Assembly: GCF_900129055.1 (NCBI RefSeq)
Contig: NZ_FQUZ01000005.1
Location: forward strand, 1 to 64,000
Length of the DNA: 64,000 nucleotides
Reading direction: 5' to 3'
DNA from: Lampropedia hyalina DSM 16112
GTDB lineage: Bacteria > Pseudomonadota > Gammaproteobacteria > Burkholderiales > Burkholderiaceae_C
The notes beneath the pieces are model-generated. The model was not told the origin of the DNA. It saw nothing but the letters and a program-made list of their open reading frames with translations, and made no database searches. Below, piece by piece: positions 452-17,105 of the stretch. Made by a program: the position numbers and the translations under genes. Positions within the stretch are counted from its first letter, which is position 1. Every line of letters begins with the position of its first letter.

Positions 452-3166
452 TCATGAAGGCGGGTGCCAGAACCTGCGGTTCACCTCGCGTTCGCATTGC
501 ACCATTTGGGGTTGCCACGACCACCAGAATAATGCACCACAAATGGGCGTTGTCCACACGGGTATATTCTCGGCTCCAAAACGGTGCAAGACCTCTGGGG
601 CGGGATGGCCGAACGGATTGCGATGCCCAGCCTGCACCACCGCCACCGAAGGGCGCACCAAACGGATGAAACGGGCCGATGAGGAGCCACGGCTGCCGTG
701 GTGTGGCACCAGCAGAAAATCTGCCCGCAAGCCGCTGGGGTGGCGCAAACCCAGGTCAAGCTCCTGCACATGGCCGATGTCGCCGGTCAGCAAGGCCACG
801 GTTCCCGATGCCGCGCGTATCTGCAACACACAGCTTTGGGCATTGTCCGCAGTGGCCTGTTCGCTGGCATGCCGAGGCGGCTGGCCGGGTTGCCACGGCA
901 GGGAAAGCGCGGCGGCAAAAGAGGCAGGCGCAATCCAGTCCTGCCACCGTTGTCCTGGCGGCAGAGGGTGCAGCACCGTGAACTGCACGCCATCCCACTC
1001 CCACTGCACGCGGGTGTCGCAGCCGGATGGGGCCGGTGCCTCCGGTCGGGACATGGCAGCAAAGTCGGGGGATACAAAAGGAGCCATCAACTGGGTGCGG
1101 GCAAAAGCCGTCAGTACATCGGCTGCACCGCCTGCGTGATCGGTGTCGCTGTGGCTCAAGACCAGCATATCGGGGGATTCGCCCAGGGCACGCAACAGCG
1201 GAACCAGCACGCGATTGCCAGCGTTGCTGTCGCTGCCTGCACTGCCACCATAGCGCGGACCGCTGTCGTACAACAGGCTGTGCTGCCGGGTTTGCACCAG
1301 CACGGCACTGCCCTGCCCCACGTCGGCGGCCAGCAACTGGAATTCACCACGCGCGGGTCGGGCCGGTTGCCAGAACCACAGCATGGCCAGCACCGGTACG
1401 GCCTGCGCCCGCCAATACCAGGGAGCAGGCAACACCAGCGCAATGGCTGCCCCCAATGACACGGCGGCCAGCGGCCACGGTACCCTTGGCAGATGCTGCA
1501 TGGCTCCTGGCCAGTGCGCCATCCATTCCAGCACCACGCCCAGCCACTGCATGGCATGGGCGGCTCCCGTCCAGGCCAGCGGCAACACACTGCCCAACAT
1601 GGCCCATGGCGTAATCACAAAGGTCACGACCGGAATCGCCAGCACATTCGCCAGCAAACCCACGATGGAAACCTGACCGAACAGCCATACCGTCAGCGGT
1701 GCAAGCACCAGCGAAATGCGCCATTGCAAACGCACCAGATCGGCCAGCCACTGCCCCACCGCCTGGCCGCCGCGCCACCATGCGGGTGCCTGCGGTTCCT
1801 GTGCCACGGCCTGTACCTGTGCAGGCAATGGGCGTTCGGCCATGACCAGCAACACTGCCACCGCCACAAAACTGAGCCAGAACCCCGCCTGCAAGAGTGC
1901 CAGCGGCTGCCAGACCACCACGGCCACCGCAGCCAGCAACAAGGTGCCGTGCCAGGGCCAGCGCACCCCTGCCAGATGCAGACACGCCCAACACGCCAGC
2001 ATCAGGGTGGTGCGCTGGGCAGGCACGCCCCAGCCGCTGAAGATGGCATAGGTACTCGCCAGCAACACCCCGCCCAGCACGGCGGCCGTCGGCGCAGCCA
2101 GCCACTGCATCAGGCGGCGACTGCCACGCCACAGCCGCCCCACCAGTTGCATGGCCAGCCAGGCGAACATGGTGATGTGCAGGCCGGAAATGGCCATCAG
2201 GTGCGCCACGCCGGTGGTGCGAAACACCTCCCAGTCCTGTGCATCGATCAAACGCTGGTCGCCCGTCACCAGTGCCGCGACCACACCGCTGGCGCGTTGC
2301 CACTGTGCCGCATCCTGACCCGGCCCATTCTCGGCCAGATGCGCCAGAATCGCATCGCGCATGCGTTGCCGCGCACGCTCCACCTGCCAGTCCCATCGCC
2401 ACCACGGCGGTGACTGCTGCCACACCGGCGGCTGCACCGCCTCGCCCAGGCGCACATACGCCGTGGCGTGAATCCCCTGCTCCCACAGCCAGAGCGCGTG
2501 GTCAAACCCGTGGGGGTTGAAGCTGCCGTGGGGTTCCCGCAACCGCACGGTCATCTCCCAGCGGTCGCCCGCCAGCAAGGCCGGGGGCATGGCCAGTGCG
2601 TCGGTCGGTGGCTGCTGCATGAAGCGGCTGCTGGCATACCAGCCTACATCCACCCGACGCGGCACAGCCACTGCCGTGGCATTGTCCACCCGACGCGCTT
2701 CTTGCACCGCCAGCCGAAACCGCACCCCATCGGGCTGTACGCGCGGCAAGGCATCCACCACACCGACGATGCGCACATCCACGCCTTCGAGTGCCGGGTC
2801 CAGGCGTTCCTGAGACTCCCCATGCGCACGCCAGCCAGCCCAGGCAAACAACAGCAGAGCACCCACCAGAAATGCCAGCACCCCGCTCCACGCCACAGAC
2901 GGCTTGTGCTTGCGCCCCCACCATAACCATGCCACCCACACTACCAGCGCAACCCATGCCAGCACAGCATAGGTCGCCGCCGACCACAGTTGCGGCTGGC
3001 GCATCTGCCACAAGGCACCGGCCAGCACCCCCAGCCCCATGCCATAGCCTGCCACACCACGGGCTGCAAACCGTGCCTGCCAATCCTCCATGTGCCCCCA
3101 TTGCCTTTCCCGGATGGGCCTGCTTGGCCATCCGACCAAATCCACACCTCCGCACATACCAGCCAC
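452..3166 (-). CDS. comEC: ComEC/Rec2-type DNA uptake channel protein
   Basis: Inner-membrane channel of natural transformation that passes single-stranded DNA into the cytoplasm. Order of parts: an N-terminal hydrophobic segment and an OB-like soluble part, the Competence domain with many membrane helices (GVAHLMAISGLHITMFAW is its signature), then a C-terminal metallo-beta-lactamase-like domain with LAADVGQGSAVLV, LSHSDTDHAGG and LVPHHGSRGSS. The length of about 880-900 residues is usual for beta-proteobacterial ComEC. The longest frame starts at 3166, but Met26 (codon at 3089-3091, beginning MEDWQARF) is a likelier start because a purine-rich GGGGGC lies before it and the first 25 residues have no family character. 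The stop lies 20 bp from the end of the tnpB element. Confidence 0.93.
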   Translation of the reverse strand: MAGMCGGVDLVGWPSRPIRERQWGHMEDWQARFAARGVAGYGMGLGVLAGALWQMRQPQLWSAATYAVLAWVALVVWVAWLWWGRKHKPSVAWSGVLAFLVGALLLFAWAGWRAHGESQERLDPALEGVDVRIVGVVDALPRVQPDGVRFRLAVQEARRVDNATAVAVPRRVDVGWYASSRFMQQPPTDALAMPPALLAGDRWEMTVRLREPHGSFNPHGFDHALWLWEQGIHATAYVRLGEAVQPPVWQQSPPWWRWDWQVERARQRMRDAILAHLAENGPGQDAAQWQRASGVVAALVTGDQRLIDAQDWEVFRTTGVAHLMAISGLHITMFAWLAMQLVGRLWRGSRRLMQWLAAPTAAVLGGVLLASTYAIFSGWGVPAQRTTLMLACWACLHLAGVRWPWHGTLLLAAVAVVVWQPLALLQAGFWLSFVAVAVLLVMAERPLPAQVQAVAQEPQAPAWWRGGQAVGQWLADLVRLQWRISLVLAPLTVWLFGQVSIVGLLANVLAIPVVTFVITPWAMLGSVLPLAWTGAAHAMQWLGVVLEWMAHWPGAMQHLPRVPWPLAAVSLGAAIALVLPAPWYWRAQAVPVLAMLWFWQPARPARGEFQLLAADVGQGSAVLVQTRQHSLLYDSGPRYGGSAGSDSNAGNRVLVPLLRALGESPDMLVLSHSDTDHAGGAADVLTAFARTQLMAPFVSPDFAAMSRPEAPAPSGCDTRVQWEWDGVQFTVLHPLPPGQRWQDWIAPASFAAALSLPWQPGQPPRHASEQATADNAQSCVLQIRAASGTVALLTGDIGHVQELDLGLRHPSGLRADFLLVPHHGSRGSSSARFIRLVRPSVAVVQAGHRNPFGHPAPEVLHRFGAENIPVWTTPICGALFWWSWQPQMVQCEREVNRRFWHPPS

Positions 3167-3211
3167 GCATGATATAAAAGAAGCATTCGATCATTCTCAA
3201 GAAAGCCCGCC

Positions 3212-3685
3212 ATGAGCATTTACGACAAACTCAACGAACTGAATATCCAGCTCCCCCCCGTCGCCACCCCGGCCGCTGCCTATGTGCCTTTTGTGCAGAG
3301 CGGCAATCTGGTGTTTTTGAGTGGCCATATCTCCCGCAGGGACGGCAAGCCCTGGGTGGGCAAGCTGGGGCAGGAGTTGAGCACCGAAGAAGGCCAGCAG
3401 GCCGCCCGCGCCACCGCCATCGACCTGCTGGGCACGCTGCACGCTGCCACGGGCGGCAACCTCGACCGCGTGGAACGGATTGTCAAAGTGCTCAGCCTGG
3501 TCAATTCCGCACCAGACTACACCGAACACCATCTGGTCACCAATGGTGCGAGCGAGCTGATCGCCCAGGTCTTCGGCGAGAAAGGCTCACATGCCCGCAG
3601 TGCCTTCGGCGTGGCCCAACTGCCACTGGGCGTGGCCGTGGAAATCGAGCTGATCGCCCAGTTGTCGCCCGAAACCCCGGCCTGA
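3212..3685 (+). CDS. RidA family (YjgF/YER057c/UK114) protein
   Basis: A protein of 157 residues with the RidA fold. Recognisable parts are NLVFLSGHISRRDGKP near residue 31 and the C-terminal ARSAFGVAQLPLGVAVEIELIA, which contains the arginine that binds the carboxylate of enamine/imine substrates in true RidA. Family members hydrolyse reactive 2-aminoacrylate made by PLP enzymes such as threonine dehydratase (an ilvA gene is at 58.8 kb). It belongs to the longer, about 150-residue subgroup, so deaminase activity is plausible but not certain. It is divergent from comEC; a TATAAA about 35 bp before the start may be its -10 element. Confidence 0.85.
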   Translation: MSIYDKLNELNIQLPPVATPAAAYVPFVQSGNLVFLSGHISRRDGKPWVGKLGQELSTEEGQQAARATAIDLLGTLHAATGGNLDRVERIVKVLSLVNSAPDYTEHHLVTNGASELIAQVFGEKGSHARSAFGVAQLPLGVAVEIELIAQLSPETPA

Positions 3686-8868: not shown

Positions 8869-10134
8869 GTGGCCAAAAGTATCCAGATCGAACATGTCTT
8901 CAAGGTCTTTGGCGAGCACCCGGAGCAGGCCTTAGCACTGGCGCGGCAAGGGCTGGACAAGAGCACCATCCTTGAAAAAACCGGCCATTCGATTGGTGTG
9001 TACGACGCACACTTCACCATTGAGGCCGGCGAGATTTTCGTCATCATGGGCCTGTCCGGTTCGGGCAAATCCACCCTGGTGCGCATGCTCAACCGCCTGA
9101 TCGAACCCAGCAGCGGAGCCATCCGCGTGGAGGGCGAAGACATCCATTCCCTCAACGAGCGCGAATTGCGCGCACTGCGGCGCAAGGACATCAGCATGGT
9201 GTTCCAGTCGTTCGCCCTGATGCCACACATGAGTGTGCTGGACAACACCGCGCTGGGACTGGAGCTGGCCGGTGTGGACAAGGCCACGCGGCAGGCTGCC
9301 GCACAGGACGCGCTGGAGCAGGTGGGACTGGGCGGCTGGGCGGCCAGCTACCCGGACGAACTCTCGGGCGGGATGCAGCAGCGTGTGGGGCTGGCCCGCG
9401 CGCTGGCGGCAGACCCGTCGATCTTGCTGATGGACGAGGCGTTTTCGGCCCTCGACCCCATCATCCGCACCGAAATGCAGTCCGAATTGCTGCGTTTGCA
9501 GGAAATCCGCCAGCGCACCATCGTGTTCATCTCGCACGATCTGGACGAGGCCATGCGCATCGGCAACCGCATTGCCATCATGAAGGACGGCCATGTGGTG
9601 CAGGTGGGCACGCCGGAGGAAATTCTGCGCCAGCCTGCCAACGAGTATGTGCGCCACTTCATCAAGGGCGTGGATGCCTCGGTGGTGTTCAAGGCGGGCG
9701 ACATTGTCAGCGGGGCGCACCCCGTCATGCAGGAGCAGGCCGGACACGGTGCGCGTGCCGCGCTGCGCATGTTGCAGGATCGGGATCGGGAATTTGCCTA
9801 TGTGGTCTCGGCAGGCCACCGCTTCCGGGGCATCGTCTCCACCGATTCGCTGCGCAGTGCGCTGGAAGGGCACGAAGGGCCGCTGGCCTTGCAGCACGCC
9901 TTCCTGCCCGATGTCGCGCCAGTGCAAAGCGACGAGCTGGTGGCCGATCTGCTGGGGCGCGCTGCCACCCATGCCTACCCGTTGCCGGTAGTGGCTGGCG
10001 ATGGCCGCTTTCAGGGGGCAATCAGCCGCACCCGATTGCTGCGTTTTCTGGATCGGGACACTCCACCCATTCCCCCCGGAGGTTTCGATGCCGCACACGC
10101 CGCCCCTGTTTCCGCTGAGAAAGGTTTCGCATGA
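8869..10134 (+). CDS. proV: Glycine betaine/proline betaine ABC transporter ATPase ProV
   Basis: ATPase of the osmoprotectant importer. Walker A GLSGSGKST is near residues 61-69, LSGGMQQRVG near 165 and Walker B ILLMDEAFSALDP near 186-198. C-terminal CBS-type sequence (from about residue 280) acts as the ionic-strength sensor in this family. Start choice: AAAGGA (8854-8859) directly abuts an ATG at 8860, which leaves no spacing, but lies 9 nt before GTG at 8869. Starting there, VAKSIQIEHVFKVFG aligns residue for residue with the E. coli ProV N-terminus as I remember it. It overlaps proW by 4 bp (ATGA). Confidence 0.95.
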   Translation: MAKSIQIEHVFKVFGEHPEQALALARQGLDKSTILEKTGHSIGVYDAHFTIEAGEIFVIMGLSGSGKSTLVRMLNRLIEPSSGAIRVEGEDIHSLNERELRALRRKDISMVFQSFALMPHMSVLDNTALGLELAGVDKATRQAAAQDALEQVGLGGWAASYPDELSGGMQQRVGLARALAADPSILLMDEAFSALDPIIRTEMQSELLRLQEIRQRTIVFISHDLDEAMRIGNRIAIMKDGHVVQVGTPEEILRQPANEYVRHFIKGVDASVVFKAGDIVSGAHPVMQEQAGHGARAALRMLQDRDREFAYVVSAGHRFRGIVSTDSLRSALEGHEGPLALQHAFLPDVAPVQSDELVADLLGRAATHAYPLPVVAGDGRFQGAISRTRLLRFLDRDTPPIPPGGFDAAHAAPVSAEKGFA

Positions 10135-11336
10135 GTTCTGCCATTTCCCCTGAATCCGCCCCCGCCGCGACGACCGACAATCCGTGGCTGTCGGCCAATA
10201 CACCGGCCCCGTTTGACGATGCGGCGGGCAGCAATCCCTGGGGCAGCATGGCCGATGCCTCGAACGAACAGGCAAACACCCCGGCCACCAGCAACCCCTG
10301 GGGCACGGCCAGCGACACGCCAGCCACGCCCTCTGCCGATGCAGGAGCAGACTGGCTGTCTGCCGCGCCCGATCACACGCCTGCCGCAACCGGCTTTCAG
10401 TGGAGCCAGCTCTGGGATGGCAGCCTGCCGGTGCAGGACTGGATCAACCAGGCACTGGAATGGTTTGTGGCGCAGTTCCGCCCCTTCTTCCAGGCTGTGC
10501 GCGCCCCCATCGATGCCACCCTGGGCGGCATTCAGGACGCGCTGCTGTTTGCCCCCGCACCGTGGATGATCGCCCTGCTCACGCTGATTGCCTGGCAACT
10601 GGCCGGGCGCGGCATTGCCATCGGCTCGCTGCTGTCGTTGCTGGTGATTGCCGCGCTGGGCATCTGGCCGCAAGCCATGATTACCCTGGCACTGGTGCTG
10701 ACCTCCCTGCTGTTCTGTCTGGCCCTGGGCCTGCCGCTGGGCATGGTGCTGGCACGCAGCGACCGGGCCGAGAAAATCGCCCGCCCCTTTCTGGATGCCA
10801 TGCAGACCACTCCCGCCTTCGTCTATCTGGTGCCGGTGGTGATGCTGTTCGGCATCGGCAACGTACCGGGCGTGATCGTCACCATCGTGTTCGCACTGCC
10901 CCCGCTGGTGCGCCTGACCAGCCTGGGCATCCGGCAGGTACGGCCCGATCTGATCGAGGCTGCCAAGGCTTACGGCGCATCACCCTGGCAAATGCTGGTG
11001 AAAGTGCAGTTGCCACTGGCCATGCCCTCCATCATGGCGGGCATCAACCAGTCGCTGATGCTGTCGCTATCGATGGTGGTAATCGCTTCGATGATCGCCG
11101 TAGGCGGCCTGGGCCAGATGGTGTTGCGCGGCATTGGTCGCCTCGACATGGGGCTGGCGACCGTGGGCGGCGTGGGCATCGTGCTGCTGGCCGTCATGCT
11201 CGACCGCATCACCCAGAGTATGGGCCAGGCCCGGCGTGGCAGTGCAGCGCAACGCTGGTACCACAGCGGCCCGGTCGGGCTGGTGCGCCGCCTCCTGCAA
11301 CGCGGCACTACCTCTACCAAGACCACCACACGTTGA
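10131..11336 (+). CDS. proW: Glycine betaine ABC transporter permease ProW
   Basis: A 401-residue inner-membrane permease. The long N-terminal tail (about 95 residues) is rich in NPW and NPWG motifs and ends with ADWLSAAP, as in E. coli ProW but longer. The membrane part is highly conserved: [20 protein letters not shown], the EAA loop around [15 protein letters not shown], and [17 protein letters not shown]. The start ATG overlaps the proV stop, so the two are translationally coupled. Confidence 0.96.
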
Positions 11337-11380
11337 ATCCTCCCTTTTTCTTTCCTCTCGACCTTGCAAGGAGCCATTCC

Positions 11381-12409
11381 ATGAAATTGCCATTTTCCCT
11401 TCGCCCGCTGCTTTCTTCCACCCTGCTGGCCGCCAGCCTCATCGGGCTGGGCGGTGCTGCCACAGCGCAGACCGCCACGGCTCTGCCCGGCAAGGGCATC
11501 ACCGTGCAGCCCATCCAGAGTTCAGTGGCAGAGGAGACTTTTCAGACCCTGCTGGTCGCTCGCGCACTGGAGCGGCTGGGCTATACGGTATCGGGCATTC
11601 AGGAGACCGAATACGTCACCGGTTTTCTGGCCATTGCCAATGGCGATGCCACGTTCATGGCCGTGAACTGGCGGCCCCTGCACGACGACTTCTACCGCAA
11701 TGCCGGTGGCGACGACAAGTTCTACCGCAAGGGCACCTACATCACCAATGCCCTGCAAGGCTATCTGATTGACCGCAAGACCGCCCAAGCGCACAAGATC
11801 AGCAACATCCAGCAACTCAAGGAGCCAGCGATTGCCAAACTGTTCGATGCCAACGGCGACGGCAAGGCCGACCTGACCGGCTGCAACCCCGGCTGGGGCT
11901 GCGAGGCCGTGGTGGAACACCATCTGGATGCCTACGGCCTGCGCGCCACCGTCAGCCACAACCAGGGCAGCTATTCCGCGCTGATTGCCGACACCATCAG
12001 CCGCTACCGCGCGGGCCAGCCAGTGCTGTACTACACTTGGGCACCGTACTGGGTCAGCGGTGTGCTCAAGCCCGGCTCCGACGTGGTCTGGCTGCAAGTG
12101 CCATTCTCCAGCCTGCCCGGCGAGCAAAAGGACATCCACACCGCCCTGCCGGATGGCTCCAACTACGGCTTCCCCATCAACACCCAGCACATCGTCGCCA
12201 ACAAGGACTTTGCCGCGAAAAACCCCGCTGCAGCGAAATTGTTTGAAGTCATGCAACTGCCCATTGGCGACGTGAACGCCCAGAACCTGCGCATGCAGCA
12301 GGGCGAAAACAGCAGCGCGGCCATTGCCCGCCATGTGGACGGCTGGATCAAGGCCAACCAGGCCACTTTCGATGGCTGGATTGCCCAGGCACAGCAGGCC
12401 GGGCAATAA
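11381..12409 (+). CDS. proX: Glycine betaine-binding periplasmic protein ProX
   Basis: A 342-residue solute-binding protein. The signal peptide is [20 protein letters not shown]..., with probable cleavage after AATAQ. The ligand-site tryptophans expected in ProX are present in [17 protein letters not shown] and [10 protein letters not shown], and the disulfide pair is kept in [10 protein letters not shown]. The start has AAGGAG at 11368-11373. It completes proVWX; the substrate is glycine betaine or proline betaine taken up under high osmolarity. Its stop is 1 bp from the stop of the convergent diflavin reductase gene. Confidence 0.95.
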
Positions 12410-12410
12410 C

Positions 12411-14069
12411 TCAGAACAGTTCGTGCTTCACGCGCTGTTCCAGCAACAGGTTCTGCACGAAGGTGTGGGCCTGTTCGTCGTCCAGTCCGCCGGACTGGCG
12501 GGCGATGTCGTGCAGGGCCTGCTCCACGGCCTGACCCAAATACGCCTTGTTGCCACAGACATAGACGCGTGCACCCTTGGACAGCAATGCCCAGAGGGAG
12601 TCGGCATGTTCCAGCATGGCGTGCTGGACATAGCGGCGCGGGGTGGCGGTGGCGGCACTGCTGGCCTGCCCCCCGGCATCCGTGGGGCTGTCGCCGCGTG
12701 AAAATGCCGTCACCACAGACTGGAGGATGCCCTGCCCTTGCCATTGCTCCAGTCGCTCCCGGTAGAGAAAATCGCTGTCGGCATGGCGGTCGCCAAAGAA
12801 CAGGCTGGTGTGCGGTATGGGCTGGCCCTGAACGTGTGTCTGCTCCAGTTGCGCCAGAAAGCCAATGAATGGGGCAATGCCTACGCCGGTTCCGACCAGA
12901 ATCAATGGTGCAGTATCGGTGGGCAGGTGAAAAGATGGATTGCTCTGGGTGAACACGCCCAGCGTGTCGCCCACCTGCACATGGCCGAGGTGGCCGGTGG
13001 CAATGCCCTGGTAGTCGCGCCCGCGTGCGTGGTAGGCGACATCGCGCACGCACAGGTCAATGTGGTCGGGGTCGCTGCTGGCAATCGAATAGGCGCGGGG
13101 CAGGCATTCGGGCAGCAGACGCACCAGATCGTTGAGGCGCACGGTGTCGGGCGAGCAGAAGTCTTGCAGCACGTCCAGTACATCGCGGCCATACAGGTAG
13201 GCATCGAGCTGTTTTTTCTGGCTGATTTTCAGCAGTTCCTTCAGCTCCTCGTTGCCGGACAGGCGAGCGAGTTCGCGCAGGCTGGCGCGGCCCAACTGGC
13301 GCAGCTCACGCCCGGCCAATGCCGTGCGATTGCGGTCATCGGGCAATGGCTGGGCTGAAGCATCCGGCTCCAGCCAAAAGAGGATGCGTTCGATGAGTTC
13401 GGGTGGGTTGTCCGGCACGACGTAGAGGGTGTCACCGGGACGGTAGAACATGCCACTGCCGCTGATGTCCAGCCGCAGGTGCGAAGCCAGTGGCGCGCGG
13501 CGATTCAGGGTTTCCCGCTGTACCACCACAGCCGGATAGCTGTTGTTCTCGCTGTAGGCCATGACCCGCAGATTCAATGCCTTGCCCGCCTTGGCATCGC
13601 CTTGCAGCACCTTGAACAGGGTTTCCCGCCAGAGCGGAAAAAAGACTTCATAGCTGGAGTCGGCATCGACGCGGTTCACGAAGGCGGTGGCGGCGCGGCT
13701 TTCCAGCGTTTCGTCCAGATCCTTGCTGAATCCGCAGAAGGTGGGATAGGCGGTATCGCCCAGCCCGAAGATGGCGTAATGCAGCTCGTGCAGGACATCG
13801 GCCATGCGCACGGCATCGAGAAAGTCGCTGGCATTGGCCGGCGGCTCGCCATCACCGAAGGAACTGGTGATGATGATGAGCCGGTCTTGCACCCCCAGAC
13901 CATGGGGATCCACCATGCCAAGCTCCTGTAGCTCGACGCGTTCGCCCAGTGCCTGCATGAATGGCTCCTGTGCCAGGCGTTGCGCCAGATGCTGGGAGTT
14001 GCCCGATTCAGAACCGTAGCCGATGACGATGCGCCCGGTTGCCGTGACTTGACCGATGGATGCTGACAT
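12411..14069 (-). CDS. CysJ-like diflavin reductase (flavodoxin + FAD + NAD(P)H domains)
   Basis: A 552-residue electron-transfer protein. An N-terminal flavodoxin domain (IVIGYGSESGNSQHLAQRLA at about 14-33, TSSFGDGEPPANA, FGLGDTAYPTFC) binds FMN. The FAD domain has PRAYSIASSDP near residue 330, and the NAD(P)H domain has LILVGTGVGIAPFIGFL near 395 and VYVCGNKAYLG near 507. This is the architecture of CysJ and P450 reductases, but no cysI hemoprotein gene is next to it and the chain ends ...RVKHELF rather than the usual aromatic C-terminus. Instead it follows a PAS gene (11 bp gap) and a divergent NsrR-type regulator, so a role in NO or redox stress is inferred: electron donor to an NO reductase, flavohemoprotein-like partner, or assimilatory protein. 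True sulfite reduction remains possible. Confidence 0.85.
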   Translation of the reverse strand: MSASIGQVTATGRIVIGYGSESGNSQHLAQRLAQEPFMQALGERVELQELGMVDPHGLGVQDRLIIITSSFGDGEPPANASDFLDAVRMADVLHELHYAIFGLGDTAYPTFCGFSKDLDETLESRAATAFVNRVDADSSYEVFFPLWRETLFKVLQGDAKAGKALNLRVMAYSENNSYPAVVVQRETLNRRAPLASHLRLDISGSGMFYRPGDTLYVVPDNPPELIERILFWLEPDASAQPLPDDRNRTALAGRELRQLGRASLRELARLSGNEELKELLKISQKKQLDAYLYGRDVLDVLQDFCSPDTVRLNDLVRLLPECLPRAYSIASSDPDHIDLCVRDVAYHARGRDYQGIATGHLGHVQVGDTLGVFTQSNPSFHLPTDTAPLILVGTGVGIAPFIGFLAQLEQTHVQGQPIPHTSLFFGDRHADSDFLYRERLEQWQGQGILQSVVTAFSRGDSPTDAGGQASSAATATPRRYVQHAMLEHADSLWALLSKGARVYVCGNKAYLGQAVEQALHDIARQSGGLDDEQAHTFVQNLLLEQRVKHELF

Positions 14070-14080
14070 GCTGAAGTCTC

Positions 14081-14506
14081 TTATGCCTTGTCGTAATAGT
14101 TGTCGAACTGTTCCTTGGCAAACTCGACGGATTCAAAATCGGACATCAGGTCGTTGATGACGCGACGAATGCTGATGTAGGAGGTGATTTCGCCCTGTTC
14201 GTTGCGAAGGGGCTGCACGGTAGTGTCCACCACATAGAGTGCACCGCCCTTGCCACGGTTGGGAATGATTCCCGTCCATGTATTGCCTGCCTTGATAGTA
14301 TCCCACATCTGCTTGTACACGGGCTTGGGCACGGAAGGATCGCGCACAATGCTGTGCGGCTGGCCCAGCAACTCTTCGCGGCTGTAGCCGGTGAGCTGAC
14401 AGAACAGATCGTTCACGTAGGTGATGTGGCCTTGCAGGTCGGTGGTGGAGATCACCATGACTTTGTCAAGGGAGGCGAGAAGGGTCTGGGAGTCGAGGTT
14501 GCTCAT
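14081..14506 (-). CDS. Aer-type single PAS domain protein
   Basis: A 141-residue soluble protein consisting of one PAS domain and a short C-terminal helix. It has the signature of the FAD-binding Aer/redox PAS group: ITYVNDLFCQLTGYSREELL, then GQPHSIVRDPSVPKPVY, MWDTIKAGNTWTGIIPNRG and VVDTTVQPL. No output domain (HAMP, kinase, methyl-accepting) is attached. It is the first gene of a two-gene unit with the diflavin reductase, which suggests that it senses redox state or passes a signal or electrons to that enzyme. The promoter side faces the NsrR-like operator at 14574-14596. Confidence 0.82.
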   Translation of the reverse strand: MSNLDSQTLLASLDKVMVISTTDLQGHITYVNDLFCQLTGYSREELLGQPHSIVRDPSVPKPVYKQMWDTIKAGNTWTGIIPNRGKGGALYVVDTTVQPLRNEQGEITSYISIRRVINDLMSDFESVEFAKEQFDNYYDKA

Positions 14507-14573
14507 GGCCGTAATCCTATGGAAAAAAACAGAAAAACCACATGCCCTACGCGATTCATGGGTCTATCGACAT

Positions 14574-14596
14574 AAGGTACATTTATTGTACATCTT
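14574..14596. promoter_or_regulatory. Candidate NsrR operator
   Basis: The 23-bp sequence starts AAGGTACAT and ends GTACATCTT. It fits the NsrR consensus of beta/gamma-proteobacteria as I recall it (AAGATGYAT, 5 bp, AAATRCATCTT-type ends), especially in the outer AAG/CTT and CATCTT parts. It lies midway between the divergent PAS gene (start 14506) and regulator gene (start 14646), so it could control both. Confidence 0.55.
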
Positions 14597-14645
14597 AAAA
14601 AAACACAGCCGAGACAAAAGATATAAATTCCGCACACCTTCAAGC

Positions 14646-15167
14646 ATGAAACTGACACTTCGCACCGATTACGCACTGCGTACCCTGATGTACCTGGGTA
14701 TGCAGCCTGAACGCATGGCCTCGATCCGGGAGATCGCAGCGGCCTATGGCATTTCAGAAAACCACATGGTGAAGGTGGTGCATGAGCTGGGGCGTGGCGG
14801 CTTTATCGAAACGGTGCGCGGCAAGGGCGGCGGCATCCGCCTGGGGCGAGCTGCCGAGAGTATCCACATTGGTGATGTGGTGCGCTGGATGGAGGAGGAC
14901 ATGGCCCTGGTGGCCTGTTTTGCGTCCAATGGCGCAGCGGACGCGGCCACAGGCAAGCACGCTGCCGTGCCCTGTGTGCTGGAGAATGCCTGTTCACTGC
15001 AATACCTGTTGCAGCGTGCGTTGGCCGCGTTTCTGGAAGTGCTCGATACGCACACGCTGGCCGATCTGCTGCACACCACGCACGGCGCAACCACCAGGAA
15101 ACGGCAGGCAACGGAAGTGCTGCTGCAACGCCTGCAAATCGCCCCGGTCAGGGTTGAGCAGAAGTGA
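14646..15167 (+). CDS. nsrR: NsrR-type Rrf2 family transcriptional regulator
   Basis: A 173-residue regulator. The N-terminus [17 protein letters not shown] and the winged helix with [18 protein letters not shown] and [11 protein letters not shown] match NsrR closely. The [4Fe-4S] ligand set of NsrR is present: Asp8 and three cysteines, Cys91, Cys110 and Cys116. In E. coli NsrR the cysteines are at 91, 96 and 102, so the last spacing (X5) is kept but the first loop is 14 residues longer here and Ala/Gly-rich. The protein is also longer at the C-terminus. NsrR represses NO-detoxification genes and is inactivated by NO at the cluster. The 3' end overlaps the convergent tsaD by 20 bp. Confidence 0.85.
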
Positions 15168-16290
15168 CGATCTGCTCCAGCGGCCAGCGCGGGCGCACAT
15201 CGAAAGCATAGTCGGTATCGGGCTGCTGCTGGCCTGCCTGTATGCGCATGGCTGCGGCCAGTGCGATCATGGCCCCGTTGTCGGTGCACAGGTGCAGCTC
15301 CGGGTAATGCACGCGCACCCCGGCACGCTGGCAACGCTGGTTCAACTGGCGGCGCAGTTCGCGGTTGGCTCCCACGCCACCGGCGACCACCAGACGCTTC
15401 AGCCCGGTGTGTTGCAGGGCCAGCATGGATTTTTTCACCAGCACTTCGACGATGGCCGCCTGGGTGCTGGCAGCCAGATCGGCCTTGTGTGGCTCCAGTG
15501 CCTCCGGGGTTTGGCCCAGTTTGCGGGTTTGGGTGAGCACGGCGGTTTTCAGGCCGGCGAAGGAGAAGTCCAGGTTCTTGCCCTTGAGCAGCGGGCGCGG
15601 CAAATCGAATGCCTGCGGGTTGCCCTGTTCGGCCAGGCGCGAGAGAATCGGCCCGCCCGGATACGGCAGGCCGAGCAGCTTGGCAGATTTGTCGAAAGCC
15701 TCGCCTGCGGCATCGTCAATGGTTTCGCCCAGCAGTTCATACTGCCCCACGCCCTCGACGCGCATCAGTTGCGTATGCCCCCCGGACACCAGCAGGGCAA
15801 CGAACGGGAACTGCGGTGGGTCGGCACTGAGGAAAGGCGAGAGCAGATGCCCTTCCAGATGATGCACGCCCAGCACGGGTTTGCGCAATGCCATGGCCAG
15901 CGAACAGGCCACGCCCGCACCGACCAGCAGCGCACCCGCCAATCCGGGGCCTTTGGTGAAGGCAATGACATCAATCTGCTCCAGCGACACGGCGGCATCG
16001 GCCAGTACCTGGCGGGTCAGCGGCAGCACGCGGCGAATGTGGTCGCGGCTGGCCAACTCCGGCACCACTCCGCCATACAGGCGGTGCATGTCGATCTGGC
16101 TGTAGAGGGCGTGCGCCAGCAACTGCGGCACGGCAGGCTGCGCGGTGGTAGGGCCTGCCGTGGCTTCGTATTGCACCAGGGCCACGCCGGTCTCGTCGCA
16201 GGAAGATTCGATGCCCAGCACCCGCACGAGTCTGCCGCCCGGCCCGGCATCGATGGTGCTGGCAGCGAGTGAGGCAGCGGCAAGCGTCAT
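15148..16290 (-). CDS. tsaD: tRNA N6-adenosine threonylcarbamoyltransferase TsaD
   Basis: Catalytic subunit that transfers the threonylcarbamoyl group to A37 of ANN-decoding tRNAs, in complex with TsaB and TsaE. The ASKHA-fold motifs are clear: [16 protein letters not shown] near the N-terminus, the metal-binding [36 protein letters not shown] and the C-terminal CTDNGAMIA. The start at 16290 ([13 protein letters not shown]) overlaps the lgt stop as ATGA, which supports it over a longer frame beginning at 16365 inside lgt. This gives 380 residues, slightly longer at the N-terminus than E. coli TsaD. Confidence 0.96.
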
Positions 16291-17105
16291 GGCTTCACAC
16301 CCTGGCGTTGCCCCGCCCAGAACCAGATGGCGGCACCGCCCACGATCATCGGCACGCACAGCCATTGTCCCATGCTCATGTTCAGCGGCAACAGGCCCAG
16401 GAAGCTGTCAGGCTCCCGGAAGAATTCGGCAATGAAGCGCAGTACCCCATAGCCCATCAGGAACACGGCGGCAACACGGCCCTGTGCCCGTTCCTTGCGG
16501 GAATACACCCACAGCAGAACGAACAACATCACACCTTCCAGCATGAACTGGTAGAGCTGCGAGGGATGGCGCGGCAACAGACTGCCGCTGTGTGGAAACA
16601 CCATGCCCCAGGGCAGATCGGGCGGGGCGAAACGTCCCCAGAGTTCGCCATTGATGAAGTTGCCGATGCGCCCCGAGGCAAAGCCCAGCGGCACGCAGGG
16701 TGCGACGAAATCCGCCACCTGCCAGAACGGGCGTTTGCGCGTCAGCGCGAAGAACAGAATGGCGAAAATCGAGCCAATCAATGCGCCGTGGAAGCTCATG
16801 CCACCTGTCCATATCTGCACGATTTCCAGCGGATTCGAGAGGTAATAGCCTGGCTTGTAGAAGAATACATAGCCCAGCCTGCCCCCAATCAGGATGCACA
16901 GCACGCCAATGAACAGCAGGTCTTCCACATCGCTGCGCGTCCACACGCCCTGCTGCACCAGCCGGTCATACGGCGGCCGCCCAAGGCGCAAACGCCCCAG
17001 CACGATGAACAGCACGAAGCCGACGATGTAGGTCAGGCCATACCAGTGGATGGCCAGCGGCCCCAGTTGCAGGGCAATGGGGTTGATGTCAGGGTAGGTC
17101 AGCAT
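16287..17105 (-). CDS. lgt: Prolipoprotein diacylglyceryl transferase
   Basis: A 272-residue inner-membrane enzyme with about seven hydrophobic helices. It attaches diacylglycerol from phosphatidylglycerol to the lipobox cysteine of prolipoproteins. The Lgt signature [14 protein letters not shown] is intact, as are [11 protein letters not shown] (essential His) and the N-terminal [12 protein letters not shown]. It is followed by tsaD with a 4-bp overlap. Confidence 0.97.

Follow-up and report, generated by a model that had tools for sequence, protein, structure and literature searches.

A PAS protein and a diflavin reductase form a conserved gene pair with predicted nitric oxide-type regulation in Lampropedia hyalina and distant bacteria

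Introduction

What does an NsrR-type repressor control when its gene stands back to back with those of a small PAS protein and a diflavin reductase? The question is raised by a locus of Lampropedia hyalina DSM 16112, located in the first 64,000 nucleotides of contig NZ_FQUZ01000005.1 (assembly GCF_900129055.1), a stretch called the window throughout. The initial annotation described a possible nitric oxide (NO) and redox response module, in which an NsrR-type regulator gene is divergent from the genes of a solitary PAS protein (PAS) and a CysJ-like reductase (RED). All three genes are present in the window (Table 1).

The PAS-RED pair is found in several bacterial groups that are far apart, in most cases behind putative switches of NO type, and so hints at a response to NO that has not been described. 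Judging from sequence comparisons, we favour on balance the view that the pair is an NO-induced two-protein flavin electron-transfer system, in which electrons would pass from reduced nicotinamide adenine dinucleotide phosphate (NADPH) through RED to the flavin adenine dinucleotide (FAD) of PAS and would feed a haemoglobin where one is linked. Searches of an open-access library listed no paper whose title or abstract describes NO control of a PAS-diflavin pair; as evidence of novelty this is limited.

PAS and RED are a conserved pair

RED lies directly 3′ of PAS in 27 of 27 loci, which comprise the earlier carriers and added loci of the genus g89. At one extreme the two genes overlap by 4 bp, at the other they lie about 33 bp apart (RED starts were assigned by a script that failed for L037 and L038); in the window the gap is 11 bp. 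In a sample of 60 genomes reaching from the window's own genome to its order, a PAS orthologue is found in nine (own included; 73–100% identity), and RED is found at an identity of at least 49% in exactly the same nine. Within the window's genus, 8 of 10 genomes have PAS; congeners G003 and G004 (80% complete) have neither PAS nor RED. A chance neighbourhood of the two genes is rejected by the 27/27 pairing together with this co-occurrence.

A scan of 84,980 species, seeded by exact peptide patterns and thus giving a lower bound, found at least 78 PAS-like loci. Fourteen of these have 66–85% identity and all carry RED directly downstream: four Serratia, Erwinia, Pantoea, Pseudomonas cichorii, P. 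capsici, two Osedax symbionts, Moritella, a Rhizobiales bacterium, Rhizobium and Sinorhizobium. For the other 64 (at most 56% identity, partial matches included) no RED match at E 1e-8 was found in the flanking stretch, some of these stretches being short. Among 72,556 plasmids only one, from Rhizobium, has PAS at more than 60% identity, and the same record alone has RED at E ≤ 1e-80. The pair is rare: it occurs in 3 of 397 other genomes spread evenly over the phylum, all of genus g89, and in 1 of 368 other genomes of the class, which is one of those three. As to phage carriage, one scan of viral contigs gave no relative. Of 5,426 E. coli genomes, 76 match the Serratia pair, none at 80% coverage; the five matches listed fall within aer, at 8% coverage.

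Of the two proteins PAS is the better conserved, with a mean identity over 17 representatives of 72.0% vs 50.2% for RED; distances in one correlate with those in the other (r 0.82 over 20 loci).

Some copies have peculiarities of their own. At about 6400–7506 of L118, in the fragmentary genome G008, RED appears broken, being matched in two parts, possibly through a frameshift or an assembly fault. In the Rhizobium plasmid PAS (L123, 12001–12417; NZ_CP104990.1) the C-terminal tail has diverged; the distributed gene table, itself incomplete, does not list this gene. A 718-aa open frame in L046 suggested a PAS-RED fusion, which was rejected on finding the two in different frames.

The widespread unit is PAS plus RED. 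Of the three-gene neighbourhood that the initial annotation had singled out, it is these two that persist in every locus; an NsrR-type gene adjoins PAS only in the window's genus, in all 8 of its carriers. One Rhizobium plasmid also has an NsrR-type gene within the locus, not adjoining PAS (the Rrf2 gene lies past haemoglobin and FdxA genes), which brings the total to 9 of 27 loci.

In the RED tree, which omits 6 of the 27 loci (L118, L151, L037, L038, L042 and L044), the window RED stands outside a group (100/99) that includes the enterics, g89, G044 and the six congeners of the window species; where exactly it branches is not fixed, with P. cichorii nearest by path. The window PAS is nearer to Serratia (82–85%) than to the congeners (74–79%). 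These two observations suggest that, within this genus, the pair was placed next to an NsrR-type gene on more than one occasion. The same pattern may also have arisen by duplication and loss or by rapid evolution of the window RED.

Most loci have putative upstream sites of nitric oxide regulator type

The published NsrR consensus is given as gATGyAT-N5-ATrCATc (PMC1274295). We scored the 200 bp 5′ of PAS against its 14 consensus positions, using 4,411 overlapping windows from the same loci as controls; the counts are not independent, as some of the 27 loci come from closely related organisms (four Serratia, two Pseudomonas, three g89). At least 11 positions are matched in 20 of 27 loci compared to 65 of 4,411 control windows, and at least 12 positions in 18 of 27 loci compared to 10 of 4,411.

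The NsrR-like operator reported earlier between the divergent genes is indeed found there as a palindrome (Table 1). Its box (14576–14594), at 11/14, is among the weaker ones, 19 further loci reaching 11–13/14, and its score is equalled by 3.4% of 500 shuffles and by 5 of 628 other 200-bp windows of the stretch. The predicted window operator is modest by itself, yet conserved across relatives. The pattern AAGRTGYAYN5RTRYAYCTT, designed with the window site already known, is found with at most 2 mismatches at 5 distinct places in the 3.18-Mb window genome, including two within this intergenic region; allowing up to 3 mismatches gives 53 matches vs 39 for the reversed control.

Seven loci fall under 11/14. 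In both Pseudomonas loci GT-N7-AC occurs three times, at −155, −137 and −111, together with a sigma-54-like element, TGGCATGGAAGTTGA, at −59, whose −12 part is imperfect by our own reading; a further GT-N7-AC triplet lies within the PAS gene of both. Three tandem GT-N7-AC sites ahead of a sigma-54 promoter are the arrangement described for NorR, and the Pseudomonadales are described as being without NsrR (both PMC1274295). The three g89 loci have TTGAN6TCAA, a site of FNR/DNR type that other CRP/FNR regulators could also use, 91–94 bp 5′ of PAS. L120 and L046 have neither. In most loci, the upstream DNA therefore carries putative sites of NO-regulator type, of two or three kinds.

The regulator is an NsrR-type Rrf2 protein

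The window regulator matches PF02082 with 121 bits, and its best PDB matches are to NsrR (5n07/7b0c). Among NCBIfam models the NsrR model NF008240 scores best, with 128.9 bits against a cut-off of 182, followed by RirA with 124.5 against a cut-off of 193. Because the protein is under the NsrR cut-off and RirA is close, we use the label NsrR-type. Asp8 and three cysteines (C91, C110, C116), which we take to be the iron-sulfur ligand set of NsrR, are kept in 9 of 9 aligned homologues; the loop between the first two cysteines is enlarged in the window regulator and some congeners.

The regulator could instead be another Rrf2 protein, RirA- or IscR-like and attuned to iron or iron-sulfur status, and the module an iron or iron-sulfur stress unit. 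The RirA and NsrR models lie within 5 bits of each other in the window, and RirA leads in congener G002. The published NsrR consensus, however, is matched upstream in 20 of 27 loci, the Pseudomonas and g89 copies have sites of other NO-linked regulator types, and some loci have genes for NnrS and a group III truncated haemoglobin (trHbIII) as neighbours. We consider an iron or iron-sulfur stress unit quite improbable.

PAS is a stand-alone protein of FAD type

Pfam finds PAS families only in the PAS protein, which has no output domain, unlike known sensors. Its best solved matches in a protein search are domains of MmoS, Aer and NifL. Aer, NifL and MmoS are likewise the solved structures nearest to the predicted one (predicted local distance difference test, pLDDT, 81.7), the top Foldseek entries being 8dik, 2gj3, 9qq6 (NifL-NifA) and 3ewk. 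Aer contacts FAD via H53, R57, M69, W70, N85 and R115 (PMC9668731); by a hand count on a pairwise alignment, these map to H51, R55, M67, W68, N83 and R114 of PAS. Five of the six (H51, R55, W68, N83, R114) are invariant in 27 PAS sequences, and M67 varies. A conserved Trp, His and Asn are described as FAD contacts of FAD-binding PAS domains (PMC10468136, PMC9668731). PAS probably binds flavin, as a protein of FAD type.

PAS shares PAS type, fold and FAD-contact residues with the FAD-PAS redox sensors Aer, NifL and MmoS. It differs from them in standing alone at 141 aa without an output domain, in having an NADPH reductase as partner, and in its PNxxKxG loop and YVVDTT strand, which the alignments show to depart from Aer and MmoS. 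Cys36 is invariant, and MmoS also has a Cys at that position. The initial annotation considered that PAS could be a redox sensor or the electron partner of the reductase, and both the fixed pairing with RED and the retained FAD pocket are consistent with this proposal.

Which of the two roles applies bears on the function of the pair. The close solved relatives (Aer, NifL, MmoS) are all described as FAD redox sensors (PMC10468136), and 14 sequences show good conservation of the C-terminal helix that follows the PAS core. Both fit an explanation in which PAS is a redox sensor or an allosteric subunit: RED would serve only to set the PAS flavin's redox state, after which PAS would signal to another protein or regulate RED under NO stress. 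We regard this as unlikely, since PAS has no output domain, its fixed partner is an NADPH reductase, and 30 scanned neighbour open reading frames (some spurious) include no kinase, receptor or regulator that recurs across lineages; single LysR, DeoR and MarR neighbours exist, but none recurs. Conversely, PAS may be a working redox enzyme or electron carrier and not a sensor, forming with RED an NO-defence enzyme of a new class that would need no linked globin, as in the window species; this is possible, and we propose it tentatively. If PAS does carry electrons or catalyse, the range of PAS domains would extend from sensing to catalysis.

A second stand-alone Aer-type PAS family was seen in L023, L024, L027 and L029 (at about 1363–2019), with open frames of 167–196 aa and a KDGSHYWVYATAVP-like strand. 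The small gene adjoining it in L024, L027 and L029 looks by eye like that of a Roadblock/LC7 protein.

RED is not simply a sulfite reductase subunit

RED has the Pfam domains on which the CysJ domain criterion rests: Flavodoxin_1 (PF00258), FAD_binding_1 (PF00667) and NAD_binding_1 (PF00175). The pLDDT of its predicted structure is 82.5. CysJ has a C-terminal Tyr, and RED resembles it in the diflavin domain order and in a C-terminal aromatic residue. RED differs in lacking the N-terminal region, in having no need of a nearby CysI and in being present in genomes without a match to PF01077 (sulfite/nitrite reductase).

A PF01077 protein is found somewhere in 16 of 21 carriers, and in the window genome (G000) it lies on a different contig from RED. 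No PF01077 match was found in carriers G005, G007, G009 and G153 (each at least 99% complete), nor in G008 (77% complete). Because four near-complete carriers have no match, RED is not simply CysJ, and a reductase that always accompanies cysI in relatives, the finding that the initial annotation named as contradicting its reading, is not what we observe. A CysJ role was rejected on these carriers, even with the 16 of 21 that own such a protein.

It could still be argued that RED is the flavoprotein of sulfite reductase and its link to NO incidental, as CysJ is the top NCBIfam model and the CysJ structure 6efv the first PDB match, with 9c91 also high. The NCBIfam score of 330.7 bits, however, is far under the cut-off of 668.15, about half of it, and the first 56–60 positions of the CysJ model have no counterpart in RED. 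Together with the PF01077 results, this makes such an explanation most improbable.

Two more diflavin-like proteins are encoded in the window genome, on contig C51 at 13254–14867 (32%) and on contig C26 at 2066–3295 (31–35%, in two pieces).

Haemoglobin and NnrS genes adjoin some of the pairs

A trHbIII gene adjoins RED in 8 of 27 loci, namely in six congeners, G044 and the Rhizobium plasmid. The best PDB match of the G002 protein is 2ig3 (E 2e-13), which places it in group III; the Rhizobium plasmid haemoglobin is annotated as a group III truncated type, and Pfam Bac_globin scores above its cut-off in 3 of 5 neighbour haemoglobins tested. An NnrS gene then follows in G001 and G002. RED is thereby a candidate electron donor beside trHbIII, with the PAS flavoprotein as its fixed partner.

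Pfam finds no globin domain in RED or PAS. The known NsrR targets were noted as absent from the locus, and for some of them this extends to the genome: searching the window genome (99% complete) gave no match for PF00042 globin (Hmp), NnrS or the trHbIII query, while norB, norVW, ytfE and hcp, and truncated haemoglobins of groups I and II, were not searched. PF00042 globin is found in 7 of 23 genomes searched, comprising six named carriers (both Serratia tested, Pantoea, Moritella, Rhizobium, Sinorhizobium) and congener G002. The remaining nine genomes of the genus gave no match, and neither did Erwinia, G044, G153, the Rhizobiales bacterium, both Pseudomonas or the one Osedax symbiont searched.

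Carriers with NO-type sites and without PF00042 or a linked truncated globin would fit another explanation, in which the pair acts on targets that NO has damaged (nitrosylated haem, iron-sulfur or thiol sites), reducing or repairing them, and does not remove NO itself. FdxA adjoins the Rhizobium plasmid copy, and the invariant Cys36 of PAS would also suit a repair function, but MmoS shares this Cys. No repair protein is consistently linked among the scanned neighbours, and the linked truncated haemoglobin and NnrS point to NO handling. We find a repair function distinctly unlikely.

Proposed function and comparison with known systems

The proposal of an NO/redox module that is not a standard NsrR target gains support from the conservation of the pair, the predicted NO-regulator-type sites, the linked truncated haemoglobin and NnrS genes and the FAD pocket. 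From these we infer NO induction, the electron flow and the identity of the acceptor in the electron-transfer system that we favour. The NsrR-type repressor would control the divergent region; NO would damage its iron-sulfur cluster, and the PAS-RED operon would be expressed. RED would then draw electrons from NADPH through FAD and flavin mononucleotide to the FAD-carrying PAS, its dedicated partner. This step is plausible because NifL, a relative of PAS, reportedly accepts electrons from Hmp in vitro. PAS would hand the electrons to a final acceptor, which in some relatives would most simply be the adjacent trHbIII. PAS, RED and truncated haemoglobin would together be a split functional counterpart of flavohaemoglobin.

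Several observations weigh against this electron-transfer reading. The regulator is under the NsrR cut-off, with RirA scoring nearly equal; at L120, which bears trHbIII, no regulator site is recognised, and the score of L046 stops at 10/14. For 19 of 27 loci there is no trHbIII match. Because the window genome has no trHbIII, NnrS or PF00042 match, trHbIII cannot be the required acceptor, and its role as an obligatory partner was rejected. The pair as a simple replacement of Hmp was rejected too, given the PF00042 globin in 7 of 23 genomes.

Hmp is described as being under NsrR or NorR control (PMC1274295), and in it a flavin reductase function feeds the globin (PMC3820574). The pair would be like Hmp in its predicted NO-type regulation and in a flavin reductase presumably feeding a globin. 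It differs in that a diflavin enzyme and a separate FAD-type PAS are used, and in that any linked globin is a protein of its own, of the group III truncated type, none being matched in the window genome. The glbN-lpg2536 operon of Legionella, under NsrR and proposed for NO oxidation (PMC1274295, PMC3820574), is similar as an NsrR target joining a truncated globin with a reductase gene. Compared by description only, it differs in that the enzyme is of ferredoxin-reductase type and that the description, as far as it goes, names no PAS.

If the electron-transfer reading is true, carriers without a PF00042 match would have an NO-response module, and genes now annotated as a sulfite reductase subunit would receive a better label.

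Layout of the locus

Table 1. Features of the locus, in window coordinates
Feature	Position	Strand	Remarks
RED, NADPH diflavin reductase	12411–14069	−	552 aa; Pfam, NCBIfam and PDB matches
PAS, stand-alone FAD-type PAS protein (Aer/NifL/MmoS type)	14081–14506	−	141 aa
NsrR-like operator AAGATGTACAATAAATGTACCTT (as read on −)	14574–14596		Between the divergent PAS and regulator genes; 11/14 consensus positions; counterparts upstream of PAS in relatives
Possible second, weaker operator (tentative)	14618–14640		Ends 5 bp 5′ of the nsrR ATG; 2 mismatches to AAGRTGYAYN5RTRYAYCTT
NsrR-type Rrf2 repressor (predicted)	14646–15167	+	173 aa; Asp8, Cys91, Cys110, Cys116; PF02082

The longest open reading frame of the regulator begins at 14421 (GTG) and overlaps PAS. 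Homology begins only at the ATG at 14646, and the start was set there by homology to S. coelicolor NsrR and the congeners. A scan of 14400–14720 for sigma-70 promoter elements and terminators found no element. Positions 10131–12409 and 15148–17105 of the window were read by eye: they show what looks like a glycine-betaine type ATP-binding cassette permease and binding protein, convergent with RED, and, on the other side, tsaD-like and lgt-like genes.

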